Source of the DNA: Aliidiomarina sedimenti
GTDB taxonomy: Bacteria > Pseudomonadota > Gammaproteobacteria > Enterobacterales > Alteromonadaceae
NCBI RefSeq assembly: GCF_003986955.1
Contig: NZ_PIPN01000005.1
Coordinates: 248,001 to 312,000, forward strand
Direction of reading: 5' to 3'
DNA: 64,000 nt
Shown: positions 19,356 to 26,903 of the stretch, piece by piece
How the letters are laid out: each line of letters opens with the position of its first letter
Numbering within the stretch: position 1 is the first letter of the stretch
Program-made: the position numbers and the translations under genes
The notes under the pieces: generated by a model
Seen by the model: only the letters and a program-made list of their open reading frames with translations
What the model was told of the DNA's origin: nothing
The model's database searches: none

Positions 19356-22300
19356 ATGTGGTTAAAACTCGTTGCTTCTGAATGGAGCTACTTAAGACGC
19401 CTGCCGTCATTTTATATCGTCAGCGCGTTATTCTTTCTGCTCGCCTTCCTGGCGATGACTATCGATAATGTACAAATTGCCGTCGGCGGGCCGAATATCC
19501 TGCAAAACGGGCCATGGTTCCTGGCCATCGCCATGGTGGTATTCAGCCTGTTTGGCATGTTTGTGGTGGCAAACTTTGTTGGTAACACCGCCACGCGTGA
19601 TGTCAGCTGCCGTATGGACGGTATTATTCTGGCCACCCCAGTGCCTCGTGGCGCCTATTTATGGGGCCGGCTGACTGGGGCATATCTGATCACCATGCTG
19701 GTGTTCTGTGCCATTCCTCTGGGGTTGCTGCTAGGCAGTTTAATGCCGTGGGTCGACGCGGAGCGCTTCGGTCCAACCGTTATCGCCTATTACGTGTGGC
19801 CGGTTGTCGTTCTGGTCGCCCCTAGCCTGCTCTTTTGCGCGGTTTTATTTTACGCATTGGCGATGTTTAGTCGTTCAATGATGGGAATGTATCTCGGCGT
19901 AGTCGCCTTTTTCGTGCTCTATTTGATATCCGGTGGACTACTCAGTGAGCCCGAGCACCGGACTATTGCTGCCTTGGTTGATCCTTTTGCCAGCTCGGCT
20001 TACATGGAGCTGACCCGTTACTGGACTGCGATTGAGCGCAATACCGAGATTGTTAGCTTCGACGGCGTCTTACTCTACAACCGCCTGCTTTGGCTCGGCC
20101 TGGCTGCACTCATCATTGGCGTCTGCCAGTTTACCCTTGATCCCCGCCGGCCACTTACTGGCCGCAGCGCACGCAAACGGCAAAAACAGCTACAACAAAA
20201 TACCGTCTCTGCAGCTTCATTCAGTAGTATCTCTGCAGCGGTCCAACTGGATCTCCCGCAGGTGCAGCAGCAGCGCGGTTTTACCAGCTGGTGGCCACAA
20301 CTGGTGCGACAGACTCGCTTTGAAGTCAGTCAAATCGCCAAAAGTGCACCTTTTATCATTTTGCTGTTGATCACTATGATCATGCTGGGGGCTGCATTAC
20401 TGTTGGAAGCCAACACAGCCTATGGCACCGCGAGCTGGCCGTTTACCCGACTGATGGTGGATGAGGTGATGAATGCAACCTCACTGCTCGCTCTGGTTGT
20501 GGTGACTTACTACAGTGCTGAAAGTGTCTGGCGCGAGCGCCAGAGTGGGATGGGCGATATTGTCGATGCCACTCCGGCCCATAGTTCGGTGTTTTTCCTC
20601 TCCAAACTCGCCGGTCTTTTGGTGGTGCTGGTAGGTTTGTGTCTTGCAGCCGTAGTGGTCACTGTGTTGTATCAGCTGAGTAAAGGCATGGCCTATCTCG
20701 AGTTGGGGCAGTATGCGTTGCGTTTAGGTCTGTGGTACGTGTTACCAATGCTGATGACCGCAGTGCTGGCTATTTTTGTCCAGGTACTGAGCCCGAACAA
20801 GTTTGCCGGTATAGGCATTATGGTGGTGTTCATCATTGTGCAGATGACCCTGAGTTCAATCGGCTTAGAGCACAATATGTATTCCTTCTCCGCATCACCG
20901 GGACACATGTACAGTGATATTAATGGCTATGGCCATTACCTTACGCCGCAACTTTGGTACATGCTCTACTGGGGTGGGTTAACACTGGTGCTTGCCGTCC
21001 TCGCCTACACCTTATGGCGACGCGGGTCCGAGGCCAGCCTGAAAGACCGCAGCCAACGACTGTTAAGTAAACTGGGCTGGTCTGGTGGCGCTATGGTCAG
21101 TGCTGGCTTGCTGGCGTTCGTTATTGCAGGCACAGTGATTGTGCATAACACCCGGGTTCTCAACGAGTTCACCCCATCGAAACAGCGCATGGATCTAAGC
21201 GCTGAATACGAAAAGGAGCTTCGCCCTTACCATGACATGGCAGTGCCTTCGATCACTGCGGTGGAGCTTGAAGTAGAACTCTATCCACAGCAGCGAAGCG
21301 CGGTTGCAGTTGGTGAATACAGTCTGCAGAACCAGACTGAGGAGCCCATCGAACGTCTCTTAGTGCAACTTCCACAGCATGGTTCGCGTGCCAGCAACGC
21401 TGAAATACAGGTTGACGGGGCTCAGGTCGGCAATCTGGATCCACGGTTTAACAGTCAGTGGGTGGAGTTCGACACACCATTTGCCCCTGGCGACCAAACC
21501 CGGATGAGTTTCAGAGTCGAACGCACTAACCAGGGCTTTGTCGACAGTGGCAATGACCTTAGCCTGCTGCACAACGGCACCTTTATTAATAACTACCAGC
21601 TGCTCCCAGCTTTGGGCTATCAGGCCAGTGCCGAATTGCAGGACCGCCACGAACGACGAAAACGGGATCTGCCTGCCCGTCATCCGCTCCCCGATCTGGA
21701 CGATGAAGCGCAAAACAGAATCAATGCCTTTACCGGACATACCCATTACATTGATTTCAATGTGCTGGTCTCTACAGATCTAGGTCAGACTGCGATTGCA
21801 CCCGGGTACTTAACCGAGCAATGGGAGGATGGTGAACGGGCGTATTTCCGCTATGCGATGGACGCGCCAATCCTCAACTTCTTTAACCTGATGTCTGCGG
21901 ATCTGGAGATCACTGAGGACGAGCATAACGGCGTTGCCATTAGCGTGTATCACCATGCCCGTCATGACATGAATGTGCCCCGTATGATTGATGGGGTGAA
22001 GGACTCACTGGATTATTTTAACGCCAATTTCAGTCCTTATCAGCATCGTCAGTTGCGGATCATTGAGTTCCCGTATCGTAGTTTTGCTCAGGCGTTCCCC
22101 AACACGGTGCCGTTTTCGGAAAATATGGGCTTCGCCCTCGATCTGCGGGACGAAGAAAGTATTGATTTCGCCTATTACGTGACCGCCCACGAAGTTGCCC
22201 ACCAATGGTTTGCCCACCAAATCACCCCGGGGAACGTGCAAGGCGGTCAGGTATTAAGTGAAACCTTATCTCAGTACGGCGCCTTAATGGTGATGGAACG

Positions 22301-22970
22301 TACCTATGGTAAAGAGGCGATGCGTCGCTTCCTCAAACGTGAGCTTGACCGTTACCTGTCAGCACGAAGCTTTGATGTGATCGGAGAGTCGCCTCTGTAT
22401 CAGGTAGAAAGCCAGGCTTACATTTATTACCAGAAAGGTTCGTTGGTCATGTATGCACTACGCGACTACCTTGGTGAAGACGCAGTCAATACCGCGCTGC
22501 GTAACCTGATTGATGAGTTCCAGTATGAGCACCAGCCATATCCGAATACGCGGGATTTGATCCGTTTGCTACGTGAACAGGCTACGGACGAACAACAGGT
22601 GCTGATCACCGATATGTTTGAGCGCATCGTGCTCTTTGAGCTGCAAACCACGGACGCTGAACTGACCGAACTCGACAATGGTCGCTGGCAACTTAGCCTG
22701 ACTATTGATGCACAAAAACTGGAAGCGGACTCCATGGGGCAGGAAGAGGCGGTAGATTTCACTCAGAGCTTCGACATTGGAGCACTGCGCACGCACCCGG
22801 ATCAAATCAGCAACGCGGATGACGTTCTGTATTTACAGAAGCACCAAATCTCTCGCGGTGAAAACCAGATCCTGATAGAGCTCGACGAGCGCCCAGCGTT
22901 TGCCGGAATCGATCCCTTCGTCAAGTTGATTAGCCGCGACGTCAGCCAGAACGTGCGCGCGGTGCGTTAA
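19356..22970 (+). CDS. ABC-2 permease fused to M1-family aminopeptidase domain
   Basis: A 1204-residue fusion. Residues about 1-600 hold two hydrophobic blocks, each resembling an ABC-2 permease half (roughly 15-240 and 330-595), joined by a linker. The rest is a non-hydrophobic region ending in a zinc-peptidase domain. I see FSENMGFALDL (substrate-binding GAMEN-like position), HEVAH at 945-949, a candidate third zinc ligand Glu969 in LSETLSQYGAL, and YYQKGSLVMYALRDYLGED with the likely catalytic tyrosine. The second His and the Glu are separated by 19 residues instead of the usual 18 of M1 enzymes. The domain is probably periplasmic. The fusion architecture is known in gammaproteobacterial genomes, but its substrate is not. 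It is co-transcribed with the preceding ATPase and ends at a strong terminator. Confidence 0.9.
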   Translation: MWLKLVASEWSYLRRLPSFYIVSALFFLLAFLAMTIDNVQIAVGGPNILQNGPWFLAIAMVVFSLFGMFVVANFVGNTATRDVSCRMDGIILATPVPRGAYLWGRLTGAYLITMLVFCAIPLGLLLGSLMPWVDAERFGPTVIAYYVWPVVVLVAPSLLFCAVLFYALAMFSRSMMGMYLGVVAFFVLYLISGGLLSEPEHRTIAALVDPFASSAYMELTRYWTAIERNTEIVSFDGVLLYNRLLWLGLAALIIGVCQFTLDPRRPLTGRSARKRQKQLQQNTVSAASFSSISAAVQLDLPQVQQQRGFTSWWPQLVRQTRFEVSQIAKSAPFIILLLITMIMLGAALLLEANTAYGTASWPFTRLMVDEVMNATSLLALVVVTYYSAESVWRERQSGMGDIVDATPAHSSVFFLSKLAGLLVVLVGLCLAAVVVTVLYQLSKGMAYLELGQYALRLGLWYVLPMLMTAVLAIFVQVLSPNKFAGIGIMVVFIIVQMTLSSIGLEHNMYSFSASPGHMYSDINGYGHYLTPQLWYMLYWGGLTLVLAVLAYTLWRRGSEASLKDRSQRLLSKLGWSGGAMVSAGLLAFVIAGTVIVHNTRVLNEFTPSKQRMDLSAEYEKELRPYHDMAVPSITAVELEVELYPQQRSAVAVGEYSLQNQTEEPIERLLVQLPQHGSRASNAEIQVDGAQVGNLDPRFNSQWVEFDTPFAPGDQTRMSFRVERTNQGFVDSGNDLSLLHNGTFINNYQLLPALGYQASAELQDRHERRKRDLPARHPLPDLDDEAQNRINAFTGHTHYIDFNVLVSTDLGQTAIAPGYLTEQWEDGERAYFRYAMDAPILNFFNLMSADLEITEDEHNGVAISVYHHARHDMNVPRMIDGVKDSLDYFNANFSPYQHRQLRIIEFPYRSFAQAFPNTVPFSENMGFALDLRDEESIDFAYYVTAHEVAHQWFAHQITPGNVQGGQVLSETLSQYGALMVMERTYGKEAMRRFLKRELDRYLSARSFDVIGESPLYQVESQAYIYYQKGSLVMYALRDYLGEDAVNTALRNLIDEFQYEHQPYPNTRDLIRLLREQATDEQQVLITDMFERIVLFELQTTDAELTELDNGRWQLSLTIDAQKLEADSMGQEEAVDFTQSFDIGALRTHPDQISNADDVLYLQKHQISRGENQILIELDERPAFAGIDPFVKLISRDVSQNVRAVR

Positions 22971-23839: not shown

Positions 23840-24235
23840 GTGCTTGCTCGTATGTTCAGGTATTGCAAAACCTCAATTTGCCCCCGTCACCCTATGTTCA
23901 GCGAAACCAGTCAGCAGGTGTTGCTTGACCCCGTTGCGTTGGCCAGTTTGCTGAACCGGCTGGAACAAAGCAATTCGTCCAACGCCCGCCTTGAACGCAG
24001 GGCCGGAGTTGGAAGCTACCTTACCCTGACCCGATTAGACTGGGTTGAACAACTTGAAATTCAGCTCGTGGAGCCGAGCCTGAGTCAACCTTCGCAGGGA
24101 CGTATCTCATTTTTATCACCACTGGGTTCTGCACTCATCGGTTTACGCCCCGGTCATACCGCCACCATAGACTGTGCAGAAGGTAAGTCGCGCTGGATGA
24201 TTACCGACGTTGCTCAGCGCCGGGGAGACAGTTAG
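23840..24235 (+). CDS. GreA/GreB C-terminal-domain protein (Rnk-like)
   Basis: A 131-residue protein. Residues about 85-125 (ISFLSPLGSALIGLRPGHTATI) match the FKBP-like C-terminal domain of GreA/GreB and Rnk, which binds RNA polymerase near the secondary channel. The N-terminal part (LLDPVALASLLNRLEQSNSSNARLERR) could form a short coiled coil but is too short for a full Gre coiled coil. A role as a regulator that occupies the secondary channel without cleavage activity is an inference. The start is a GTG at 23840 with GGAG at 23829-23832; an in-frame ATG at 23894 has no ribosome binding site. Confidence 0.72.
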   Translation: MLARMFRYCKTSICPRHPMFSETSQQVLLDPVALASLLNRLEQSNSSNARLERRAGVGSYLTLTRLDWVEQLEIQLVEPSLSQPSQGRISFLSPLGSALIGLRPGHTATIDCAEGKSRWMITDVAQRRGDS

Positions 24236-24322
24236 TCGGTTTCAGCTCATTCGAGTAAGGAGGGTGCCGCCTTGAAGTCATTAGATTGACATCAATGGGG
24301 TTATTGTCGAACAGCGACGTAT

Positions 24323-24343
24323 GGGGCCTTCGGGCCCCTTTTT
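24323..24343 (+). terminator. Rho-independent terminator with TTCG tetraloop
   Basis: GGGGCC-TTCG-GGCCCC followed by TTTTT. It lies about 90 bases after the Gre-like gene. The 24236-24322 stretch before it shows no gene. Confidence 0.92.
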
Positions 24344-24447
24344 ATAATTTAATCAGAAACCTAGCGATAGAAAGTTAAGGTGGTGCGGGCGACAAAACTG
24401 AGATTATGGTCTAGATTTAGAGCTGACCAATAACAAGGAGATTTCAG

Positions 24448-24795
24448 ATGAAAAAATCACTGATATATGGCACGACTTTTTTCTTCGGCTCATTAGTTTT
24501 TAATACCGCCTTCACCGCGCCCGCTCATGCGGACATCGTCAGTACTCAGGAAATCGTCACTGAACAGCGTGCGGGAATCAATAAAACCCAACTGACCGAG
24601 CAACTGGAGCGTGCTGATATCCAGGAGCAATTGGTACGCTACGGGGTTGACCCACAAGAAGCCCTGGCCCGTATTGATTCCATGACCGACGCAGAGATTA
24701 TGGAATTAACTGCTGACATGGAAGAGCTGCCAGCAGGTGCAAGTGCAGTAACCGTTATTCTTCTACTCTTTATTATTTGGATTCTTATTCGCTAA
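24448..24795 (+). CDS. PA2779 family protein, exported with C-terminal hydrophobic tail
   Basis: A 115-residue protein of the PA2779 family, function unknown. A signal peptide ends at about residue 28 (AHA before DIV). A helical middle part follows (LTEQLERADIQEQLVRYGVDPQEALARIDSMTDAEI). Residues 94-98 read LPAGA and are followed at once by a hydrophobic stretch (VTVILLLFIIWIL, 101-113) and a final Arg115. This signal-middle-motif-TM-basic layout resembles C-terminal processing or sorting signals. The start has AAGGAGAT just upstream. The stop codon overlaps the likely start of the neighbouring C39-like peptidase gene, a pairing conserved in Pseudomonas (PA2779-PA2778). Confidence 0.85.
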   Translation: MKKSLIYGTTFFFGSLVFNTAFTAPAHADIVSTQEIVTEQRAGINKTQLTEQLERADIQEQLVRYGVDPQEALARIDSMTDAEIMELTADMEELPAGASAVTVILLLFIIWILIR

Positions 24796-25763
24796 TGTTT
24801 TGCAACTTTGCTGTTAGAGCCCCGATGCGCCTGCTGGTGCTTTTCGGGGCTTTATTATTAAGTGCATGCGCCGCCGGGCCGCTGCAGTATGACGAACTGG
24901 TTGAAAGCAATCAGTACACCACTGCGGTCGAACTTCTCGATACCCCCTTTCATCCGCAAGAGGCGTATCAGTGCGGCCCTGCCGCCTTAGCTACCATATT
25001 GCAGGTCAGCGGTGTCGACGACGCAACGCCGGAGCGTCTGGCGGATCAGGTCTACCTGCCAGAGCGTCAGGGAAGCCTGCAAATGGAGTTGTTAGGTGCG
25101 ACCCGCCGTGCCAGCCGTGTTCCTTATGTTATGGCTCCCACCCTGGACGCATTAATGACCGAAGTTTATGCGGGTAACCCGGTTCTGGTATTACAAAACC
25201 TGGGTTTGCCTCGCTGGCCGATGTGGCATTACGCTGTGGTTATTGGCTACGACCCTGAGGACCAGCAAGTCGTCTTGCGCTCCGGTACTACCGAACGTGA
25301 GATCATGTCGTTGCGGCGCTTCGAACGAACCTGGAAAATGGCCGATTACTGGGCACTGGTGGTGACTGAACCAGGAGTATTGCCCGAAAGTGCCGAGCCA
25401 TTGCGTTATTTCGAAGCGGTTGCGCCACTCGAACAACAGCAACGCTGGGACATCGCTATCGAAGCGTATCAGGCAGCGGCTGAAGCCTGGCCTGGCGAAG
25501 CCACCAGCTTTATCGGCTTAGGCAACATTGCCTACCAGCAACAACGCTATGGCGATGCTGAGTTTAACTACTACCAGGCCATCGAGATCAATCCTGAGCA
25601 AGCCGCCACCTACTTCAACCTCGCGTGGGCGTTAGTCCGCCAAAACAAATTCAATGCTGCTCGCTCCGCCGCGAACGAAGCCGCTCAGCTGGCTGCCGAC
25701 GACGAACGCATGCAGCAAGCGCCCGCGCTTATCGAACAAGCGATAGAGGACAGTCAAGGCTAA
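24795..25763 (+). CDS. PA2778 family C39-like cysteine peptidase lipoprotein with TPR domain
   Basis: A lipoprotein with lipobox LSAC (Cys25) after a short hydrophobic signal. Next comes a papain-like C39 domain: Cys60 in AYQCGPAALA and His145 in MWHYAVVIGYD are the expected catalytic pair. The C-terminal third has TPR-like repeats (IAIEAYQAAAEAWPGEATSFIGLGNIAYQQQRYGDAEFNYYQAIEINPEQ). The start used overlaps the stop of the PA2779 gene (TAATG); an ATG at 24825 would leave a more compact lipoprotein signal and is a real alternative. C39 peptidases cut after small residues such as Gly-Gly or Gly-Ala, so the neighbour's LPAGA is a plausible target (inference). Confidence 0.85.
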   Translation: MFCNFAVRAPMRLLVLFGALLLSACAAGPLQYDELVESNQYTTAVELLDTPFHPQEAYQCGPAALATILQVSGVDDATPERLADQVYLPERQGSLQMELLGATRRASRVPYVMAPTLDALMTEVYAGNPVLVLQNLGLPRWPMWHYAVVIGYDPEDQQVVLRSGTTEREIMSLRRFERTWKMADYWALVVTEPGVLPESAEPLRYFEAVAPLEQQQRWDIAIEAYQAAAEAWPGEATSFIGLGNIAYQQQRYGDAEFNYYQAIEINPEQAATYFNLAWALVRQNKFNAARSAANEAAQLAADDERMQQAPALIEQAIEDSQG

Positions 25764-25768
25764 CCCTG

Positions 25769-25797
25769 CACAGCCTGACTGGCGATGGCAGGCTGTG
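25769..25797 (+). other. Hairpin after the PA2778 gene
   Basis: CACAGCCTG pairs with CAGGCTGTG (9 bases, 11-base loop). There is no clear T run, so it is a weak terminator at best. Confidence 0.45.
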
Positions 25798-25895
25798 ATT
25801 AGCAACTTTTCATATATCAAATAGCAATTCGGTTTTTAGGATTTAGCCGCGAAGCCCCTATACTCGGTCCAGATTCATAACCTGGACGACGCATT

Positions 25896-26903
25896 ATGCA
25901 ACAGACCGCTTTACCCGTACTCGATCTTCGTGATTTATACGCGGGTGGTGAGCAAAAGCAGGCCTTTTTATCCGAGCTTGCTGAAGCTGCCCGCACCGTT
26001 GGCTTTTTCTATGTCAAAGGTCATCAGCTTTGTTGCCTGCAGGACGAGGTTATGTCGTTAGGCAAACAATTTTTTGCTCTGCCCGACGCTGAAAAGCTGA
26101 GTGTAGAGATGAAAAACAGCGCCCATTTTCGCGGCTATACCCGTCTGCAGGGCGAGTTAACTCAGGGCAAACCAGATTTACGTGAACAATTCGATATCAT
26201 GGGCGAGGATCAGGCGGTTAAGGTCGCAGATAACGAACCGCAATGGTGGAAACTGATCGGTCCCAACCAGTGGCCCCAGGCGTTACCTGAGATGGAGCAA
26301 ACCCTTCTCGGTTATCAGCAGGCCCTGTCTGACGTCAGCACTGCGCTGTTACGCGCATTCGCCGAAGTGTTAGAGCAGCCAGCAACCACCTTTGACGAGG
26401 GTATTACCCCGCCCTACACCCACATGAAGCTGATTCGCTACCCCGGTAGTGCCGCTCCTGGTGAGCGTCAGGGGGTTGGTGCGCATAAAGACCCGGGCTA
26501 CCTGACCATCGTCACTCAGGACCAGCAGTCAGGCCTTGAAGTACTGAAAGACGACGAAGGCTGGGTCAGCGTACCGCCGCTTGAAGGTGCTGTCGTGATC
26601 AATATCGGTGAACTGCTCGAGCTGGCTTCAGATGGCTATCTGCGTGCGACGTACCATAGAGTACAAAGCCCGGCCGCCGATCAGGTTCGTTATTCCTGCG
26701 CCTTCTTTATGGCGGCTAAACTGGATAGCGAAGTGCCATTGCTAGACCTGCCGGAGCACCTTAAAAAAGATGCCCTGGGTCCTTCCGCCGATCCACAAAA
26801 CCCGCTGTTCTATCAGGTTGGCGACAACGTTCTCAAAGGCCGCCTGCGCTCGCATCCGGATGTGGCTCAGGCCCATTACCATGGTTTTGACCGCGCCTGC
26901 TAA
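25896..26903 (+). CDS. 2-oxoglutarate/Fe(II)-dependent oxygenase, isopenicillin-N-synthase-like
   Basis: A cytoplasmic non-heme iron oxygenase of 335 residues with the two-domain plant-type layout. The N-terminal DIOX_N part reads ALPVLDLRDL...ARTVGFFYVKGH. The C-terminal jelly roll has the iron ligands His197 and Asp199 (GVGAHKDPGYLT) and His254 (ATYHRVQSP), with RYS about ten residues later for 2-oxoglutarate. The substrate cannot be told from sequence. A TATACT -10 lies at 25859-25864. It is followed after 60 bases by a FAD oxidoreductase on the same strand, so the two may act on one metabolite. Confidence 0.88.
   Translation: MQQTALPVLDLRDLYAGGEQKQAFLSELAEAARTVGFFYVKGHQLCCLQDEVMSLGKQFFALPDAEKLSVEMKNSAHFRGYTRLQGELTQGKPDLREQFDIMGEDQAVKVADNEPQWWKLIGPNQWPQALPEMEQTLLGYQQALSDVSTALLRAFAEVLEQPATTFDEGITPPYTHMKLIRYPGSAAPGERQGVGAHKDPGYLTIVTQDQQSGLEVLKDDEGWVSVPPLEGAVVINIGELLELASDGYLRATYHRVQSPAADQVRYSCAFFMAAKLDSEVPLLDLPEHLKKDALGPSADPQNPLFYQVGDNVLKGRLRSHPDVAQAHYHGFDRAC

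Follow-up and report, generated by a model that had tools for sequence, protein, structure and literature searches.

What common task might keep the gene of a small exported protein beside that of a peptidase-like lipoprotein, when neither family has an assigned function? The question is raised by positions 24448–25763 of the window (the whole 64,000-nucleotide stretch of DNA analysed here), where genes of the PA2779 and PA2778 families, named after genes of Pseudomonas aeruginosa, stand in tandem. In the literature searched, which left most subscription journals outside it, we found passing mentions only and no functional study of PA2778 or PA2779: PA2779 adjoins bswR (passage in PMC3985676), and the PA2778 start codon is lost in clone CHA (passage in PMC3697988). 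A preliminary description of the locus had proposed that PA2778 frees or anchors PA2779 by cutting it at an LPAG site. The present analysis leads us to a narrower proposal, namely that PA2778 is a double-glycine-type cysteine peptidase and PA2779 its dedicated substrate, cut at PAG[GAS] so that the helical domain is separated from its anchor. We put the probability of this reading at roughly 0.6.

Results

The two genes and their products

The upstream ORF (24448–24795, + strand, as are all features of the pair) encodes a small exported protein of 115 residues that scores 92.6 bits against PA2779_fam (NF033919, cut-off 40) and 93.1 against Pfam DUF6627 (cut-off 27); the NF033919 profile extends 14 positions past its match in the window protein. 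Residues 1–28 (24448–24531) were recognised by eye as a putative signal peptide ending in AHA, the Ala28 of which is kept in 134 of the 146 pairs described below. The mature N-terminal domain of about 65 residues (residues 29–94, 24532–24729) is supported by a fused model of the homologue L064, in which it is predicted to form helices with block pLDDT values of 77–89 over its first 60 residues. Behind it come the PAGA motif (residues 95–98, 24730–24741), which conservation in the 146 pairs marks as the candidate PAG[GAS] cleavage site, and a C-terminal hydrophobic helix with the terminal Arg115 (24742–24792), assigned from hydropathy in the same pairs. The C-terminal end reads ...EELPAGASAVTVILLLFIIWILIR. 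ORF and sequence match the earlier picture of an exported protein ending in LPAGA, a hydrophobic helix and a terminal Arg.

The downstream gene (24795–25763, from ORF and profiles) has a possible ATG at 24795 that overlaps the PA2779 stop codon (TAATG) and an alternative, later ATG at 24825, so that the start may be the latter. Residues are numbered here from a TTG at 24777, in which Cys60 as counted from ATG 24795 becomes Cys66. The product scores 318.7 bits against C39_PA2778_fam (NF033920, cut-off 150) and 32.2 against Pfam Peptidase_C39_2 (PF13529, gathering cut-off 24), and several TPR models exceed their Pfam gathering scores; Peptidase_C39 itself (PF03412) was not reached, at 19.9 against a cut-off of 22. 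The protein comprises a lipobox with Cys at residue 31 (24867–24869; Cys in 65/65 full rows), a C39-like peptidase domain (24918–25382; Pfam, structure model, structural and profile alignment) and a TPR domain (25386–25760; Pfam, structure model, structural alignment). Among named records, that of Aliidiomarina soli lies nearest to the window; its PA2778 is 99% identical across the whole mature protein.

Two further features lie upstream. In a 1204-residue ORF (19356–22970), membrane segments resembling those of permeases appear, by eye, to be fused with a region like that of zinc peptidases (HEVAHQ), and a small protein with a GreA/GreB C-terminal domain (23840–24235) is followed by a terminator-like site at 24323–24338.

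The pair is kept and lost as a unit

Family members came from three sources: 274 scanned genomes belonging to the window's class, the 80 best among 562 confirmed PA2778 relatives in GTDB genomes, and close relatives. They yielded 146 non-redundant, adjacent same-strand pairs, of which the class scan contributed 63, GTDB genome contigs 73 and relatives 10, after the removal of duplicates, hits below 60 or below 200 bits, pairs on opposite strands (L164) and pairs with gaps of at least 700 bases (L088 among them). One match, L135, was dropped as a false PA2779. The PA2778 alignment A1 held 64 of 67 rows, without the partial L113 and L137 and the Cys-less L136, and alignment A5 held 60 of these 64; the frame-broken PA2778 of G185 (L130) was omitted.

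PA2779 exceeded the cut-off in 67 of the 274 genomes and PA2778 in 64, all of which also carry PA2779. The three genomes with PA2779 only are G011, G210 (gene at contig end) and G185 (PA2778 frame-broken). Among the loci of the best 80 of 562 PA2778 relatives, PA2779 was found in 80/80 and stood just upstream on the same strand in 79; at L164 (180–2888), PA2778 lies in an unusually long ORF (180–2462, +), with PA2779 downstream on the opposite strand. Both genes were present in 15 of 38 closer relatives, neither exceeded the cut-off in 22, and one (G276) retained a deletion remnant of both; for the window's own genus (n = 17) the corresponding numbers were 12, 4 and 1. We considered G276, a member of this genus, as an instance of PA2779 kept without PA2778 and rejected it, because its locus (L245, 6412–7246) is a remnant of both genes: its PA2779 has ...LPARV at the C-terminus, and PA2778 has lost the C39 domain and survives only as fragments of the TPRs. 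This remnant therefore supports co-loss, not an independent role for PA2779. The two genes are kept and lost together.

Gene numbers are not always equal. Two PA2779 genes accompany a single PA2778 in seven of the 274 genomes (G035, G082, G126, G127, G160, G181 and G239), and five PA2779 copies stand in 12.4-kb loci without PA2778, carrying PAGG (L068, L097, L119, L126) or TAGA (L129). No third gene came near the pair's frequency among the ORF clusters of 157 loci; the next clusters covered 34 loci (the single row inspected, an ORF, is antisense to PA2779) and 27 loci (mixed), the rest at most 11. Genomes carrying the labels Neisseriaceae, Gallionellaceae, Desulfobulbaceae, Nitrospirota and Binatia, mostly MAGs, have the pair as well. 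With respect to mobile or defensive contexts, no PADLOC match was obtained at E 0.01, the small protein had no PHROGs match that would indicate a phage origin, and the C39 domain gave one weak endolysin match in PHROGs (E 0.0032) and, as the query of a plasmid search, two records among 72,556.

A conserved PAG[GAS] motif precedes the hydrophobic helix

In the 146 pairs, which were selected with HMMs built from the family and including the motif, P95 is kept in 141, A96 in 144 and G97 in 143. These are three of the six most conserved PA2779 columns, and only R75 and G66, each 146/146, carry more information than A96. The residue after G97 is Gly in 70, Ala in 48 and Ser in 21 (139 together), with Glu in 6 and Gln in 1. 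Since the residue before the proline, Leu94, is Leu in just 89 of 146 (Met in 21, Ala in 16), the motif is better written PAG[GAS] than LPxG. Of the LPxG(G/A) signature asked about earlier as a possible invariant ahead of the helix, the Pro-Ala-Gly core and the small residue behind it are conserved, but the leucine is not. PAAS (as LPAAS) replaces PAG[GAS] in two species of one genus (L128, L130), one of them with a frame-broken PA2778, an exception that counts against the proposed cut.

A hydrophobic stretch of 15 residues follows the motif in 146/146 proteins, the lowest best Kyte-Doolittle mean being 2.09. Beyond this point the family divides into short, middle and long forms. The window protein is of the short type, and its bare terminal Arg, seen in 20 of 23 short tails (at most 22 residues after G97), is a feature of that subgroup; most family members have an additional tail beyond the helix. 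A Lys or Arg falls within the last six residues in 125 of 146. The tail of the long forms ends with a conserved TDxLGxTDxFPF-like sequence, which exceeds what a throw-away anchor needs and so counts against cleavage; it suggests that the C-terminal part of the long forms has a role of its own. A second PA2779 copy at L193 (2718–3122) has a differing, charged tail after the helix (MPAGG... to DDRDKALRY).

PA2778 has a C39 fold with Ser in place of the triad Asp

An AlphaFold2 model of mature PA2778 was predicted with a mean pLDDT of 96.8. The best structural matches of its modelled C39 domain were 3erv (Z 16.9), the LahT protease with leader 6mpz (Z 15.7) and ComA 3k8u (Z 15.4), spanning model residues 18–171 or less; the 6mpz alignment covers 135 residues at an rmsd of 2.3. 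The nucleophile Cys66 (24972–24974) is present in 145 of 146 rows, the remaining row (L176) being a cut-short ORF, and the catalytic His151 (25227–25229) in 146/146, so the expectation that orthologues retain Cys and His was borne out. Gln61 (24957–24959), the counterpart of a Gln suggested for the oxyanion hole, is found in 143/146. The third residue of the triad, Asp in LahT according to a passage of PMC6363468, corresponds to Ser169 (25281–25283) by profile alignment to ComA and 3erv, and this position is Ser in 138, Thr in 6, Gly in 1 and Ala in 1 of 146 rows. We term PA2778 C39-like because the fold, Cys, His and Gln are present but the triad Asp is missing. The replacement of Asp by Ser or Thr in 144/146 counts against cleavage.

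A simple pattern found a lipobox in 138 of 146 PA2778 rows, none of the 138 with Asp at +2; PA2778, a lipoprotein, probably sits on the outer membrane, facing the periplasm. Profiles, lipobox and model agree with the preliminary description in making the coupled neighbour an envelope lipoprotein with a C39-like domain and TPRs. One complete PA2778 without the Cys was seen (L136, 5735–6862; QGAP for QCGP); it is an unpaired paralogue with no PA2779 within its 12.8-kb locus, and an intact pair is present elsewhere in its genome.

Two C-terminal profiles point to PA2779 loci

The end of PA2779 had been likened to C-terminal sorting signals, and two profiles of it were searched for further carriers. 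Profile A2, from 31 of 103 long-class rows, was run against 185 genomes, and profile A3, from 13 of 20 short-class rows, against 38; A3 omits seven rows, six lacking a final Arg and L138, which nearly duplicates the window. Every one of the 52 places matched by A2, and 15 of the 16 matched by A3, is a PA2779 locus. The odd A3 match (G289:C44) is weak, partial and inside a 238-residue ORF, and was judged chance-like. No other protein in these genomes was thus found by A2 or A3 to carry the signal, in searches that strongly diverged signals could escape. The idea of a general tag did not hold up; because the two profiles found the signal on no other protein beyond this match, the arrangement looks like a dedicated pair and not like a general sorting system.

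Terminator-like hairpins are enriched between the two genes

A putative attenuator or terminator, a hairpin followed by a U-rich stretch, lies at the junction of the genes (24815–24854); the surrounding sequence (24790–24870) folds with an MFE of −34.1 kcal/mol (z −4.3). Across the family, junctions are much more structured than gene bodies: z < −2 was reached in 53 and 65 of 145 junction windows, while each of four control windows gave between 6 and 10 of 146. A terminator-like pattern (stem, loop of 3–10, T-run) occurs at 42 of 146 junctions against 3.4 expected from shuffles and 0–8 in five control windows; the hairpin of the window itself is not among the 42 and was not listed either by a promoter and terminator scan of 24000–26000. 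This enrichment is newly observed here. It suggests that many transcripts stop after PA2779 and that the small protein outnumbers the enzyme, since the terminator-like hairpin sits between their genes. A substrate more plentiful than its enzyme is what one expects where a protease processes a client, and is less to be expected in a fixed complex. In Pseudomonas stutzeri DSM4166, a PA2779-family gene is one of 39 whose transcripts ranked within the top 3% in each of four samples (passage in PMC10155442).

Contacts between the two proteins

Mean-field DCA of the 146 pairs gave a best inter-protein score of 1.14. In five of six shuffled pairings the highest score was lower, while the sixth reached 1.42; since shuffling destroys the common ancestry of partners too, true pairings should score slightly higher even if the proteins do not touch. 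Top-ranking DCA pairs are not concentrated at the motif or the catalytic residues, and among the top 25 none joins P95, A96 or G97 to a catalytic residue; Leu94 with Ala70, which lies four residues after the Cys, ranks 14th. In the fused PA2779–PA2778 model of L064, an artificial read-through predicted from a shallow alignment of 17 rows, residues 67–71, among them the PAGG motif, have pLDDT below 50 and the motif is unplaced.

Discussion

We propose the following course of events. PA2779 would be exported by Sec and lose its signal peptide. Its C-terminal helix would then keep it in the inner membrane, the tail lying on the cytoplasmic side, a topology that fits the Lys or Arg near its C-terminal end. 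The TPRs or the C39 groove of PA2778 may grip the helical domain and let the exposed PAG[GAS] linker reach into the active site, where Cys66 and His151 would cut PAG|x or PAG[GAS]| close against the membrane. Gly followed by Gly, Ala or Ser fits the specificity of C39 enzymes, which is for GG and sometimes GA (passage in PMC5557850). Glu or Gln after PAG in 7 of 146 proteins would be odd for a classical P1 residue and more natural if PA2778 cuts immediately behind the conserved Gly, as it may. The helical domain, with a new end of Gly or Gly-Gly/Ala/Ser, would be parted from its anchor and then either released or passed to an amine acceptor. Owing to the terminator-like hairpin, PA2779 would be made in excess. 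The original suggestion that PA2778 frees or anchors PA2779 by cutting at LPAG gains from the PAG[GAS] motif, the retained Cys and His, co-retention, the fold, the extra PA2779 copies and the junction hairpins, and loses by the variable Leu and the change of Asp to Ser; the cutting itself we infer. What the present analysis refines is the motif, now PAG[GAS], the dedicated nature of the substrate, the third triad position, where Ser replaces Asp, and the attenuator-like hairpin at the junction.

Several of these observations could be read differently. PA2779 might be left uncut as a membrane-anchored partner or regulator, with PAG as a helix-breaking hinge and PA2778 acting elsewhere; strict pairing and a conserved tail would also suit a complex, the fused model gave no docking support for cleavage and covariation was not clear. 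We nevertheless think this unlikely, because the junction hairpins, and the second PA2779 gene in seven genomes, speak against 1:1 stoichiometry in a complex, and a plain hinge needs no Gly-then-Gly/Ala/Ser pattern in nearly all rows. The replaced third triad residue could also mean that PA2778 is no longer a peptidase and that its C39-like domain binds PA2779 as a chaperone, comparable to the inactive C39-like domain that some type 1 secretion transporters carry (passage in PMC5557850). Such strict retention of Cys (145/146), Gln (143/146) and His (146/146) is hardly to be expected without catalysis, however, and the sole complete Cys-less copy is the unpaired paralogue at L136, which makes a chaperone role very improbable.

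Two other readings keep the cut and change its purpose. The order of a leader-like helix, Gly-[GAS] and a hydrophobic peptide mimics double-glycine precursors, so that the C-terminal hydrophobic peptide might be the product and the helical domain its leader, in a bacteriocin-like maturation that would be periplasmic; the conserved tail of the long forms would agree with this. Yet it is the helical domain that is family-wide, whereas the C-terminal part differs between the short, middle and long forms, and clustering and inspection by eye found no regular immunity- or transport-like neighbour in the 157 loci, which leaves this alternative a slim chance. It is also conceivable, if quite unlikely, that PA2778 is a transpeptidase that joins the new C-terminal Gly of PA2779 to an amine of the envelope (lipid, peptidoglycan or protein), a sortase-like or Atg8-like conjugation on a C39 fold in which the triad Asp has turned into Ser. 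If cleavage by PA2778 is correct, two families without an assigned function gain a joint and testable job, a periplasmic C39-type peptidase gains a defined candidate substrate, and a C-terminal double-glycine processing route emerges that is distinct from rhombosortase.

The proposed pair has likenesses in several known systems. LahT, ComA and PCAT1 (6mpz, 3k8u, 8vp5) share with PA2778 the fold, the Cys, His and Gln, and a Gly-[Gly/Ala/Ser] site after a helix of the partner. They are, however, domains of ABC transporters that remove N-terminal leaders and have the Asp, whereas PA2778 is an envelope lipoprotein without it and would part an N-terminal domain from a C-terminal membrane helix. Atg4 is a cysteine protease that exposes the C-terminal Gly of the small protein Atg8, much as is proposed for PA2778 and PA2779. 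Processing of Atg8 by a cysteine protease is mentioned in the relevant passage of PMC6219818. The Atg4/Atg8 system is eukaryotic and proceeds to conjugation with phosphatidylethanolamine, whereas for PA2778/PA2779 conjugation is only a candidate reading.

FapD of the Pseudomonas Fap amyloid system is, by the passages of PMC5557850 and PMC6173800 that concern it, a periplasmic C39 peptidase exported by Sec; FapC secretion requires its Cys38, and those passages leave its substrate open. As described there, FapD and PA2778 are alike in being exported C39-type cysteine peptidases outside an ABC transporter, and FapD, the Cys of which is needed for function, is a precedent that favours cleavage by PA2778. 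The two, likened here by description, differ in that FapD belongs to the fapABCDEF operon, while PA2778, a lipoprotein with TPRs, has a single dedicated partner and Ser for Asp. GlyGly-CTERM proteins, in the excerpts of PMC6219818 and PMC3237569, resemble PA2779 in their C-terminal glycine motif, hydrophobic helix and basic end and in a proposed cut beside the helix; according to the former they are cut by the intramembrane protease rhombosortase, and in VesB the new C-terminal Gly is linked to a glycerophosphoethanolamine-containing group. A GlyGly-CTERM-like system places one signal on several unrelated proteins, whereas the profile searches tied the PA2779 signal to a single family; rhombosortase, as portrayed in these excerpts, is an intramembrane serine protease with many substrates, and PA2778 would be a soluble-domain cysteine peptidase with a single substrate family. 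PA2778/PA2779 thus resembles both FapD and GlyGly-CTERM/rhombosortase and is to be filed under neither.
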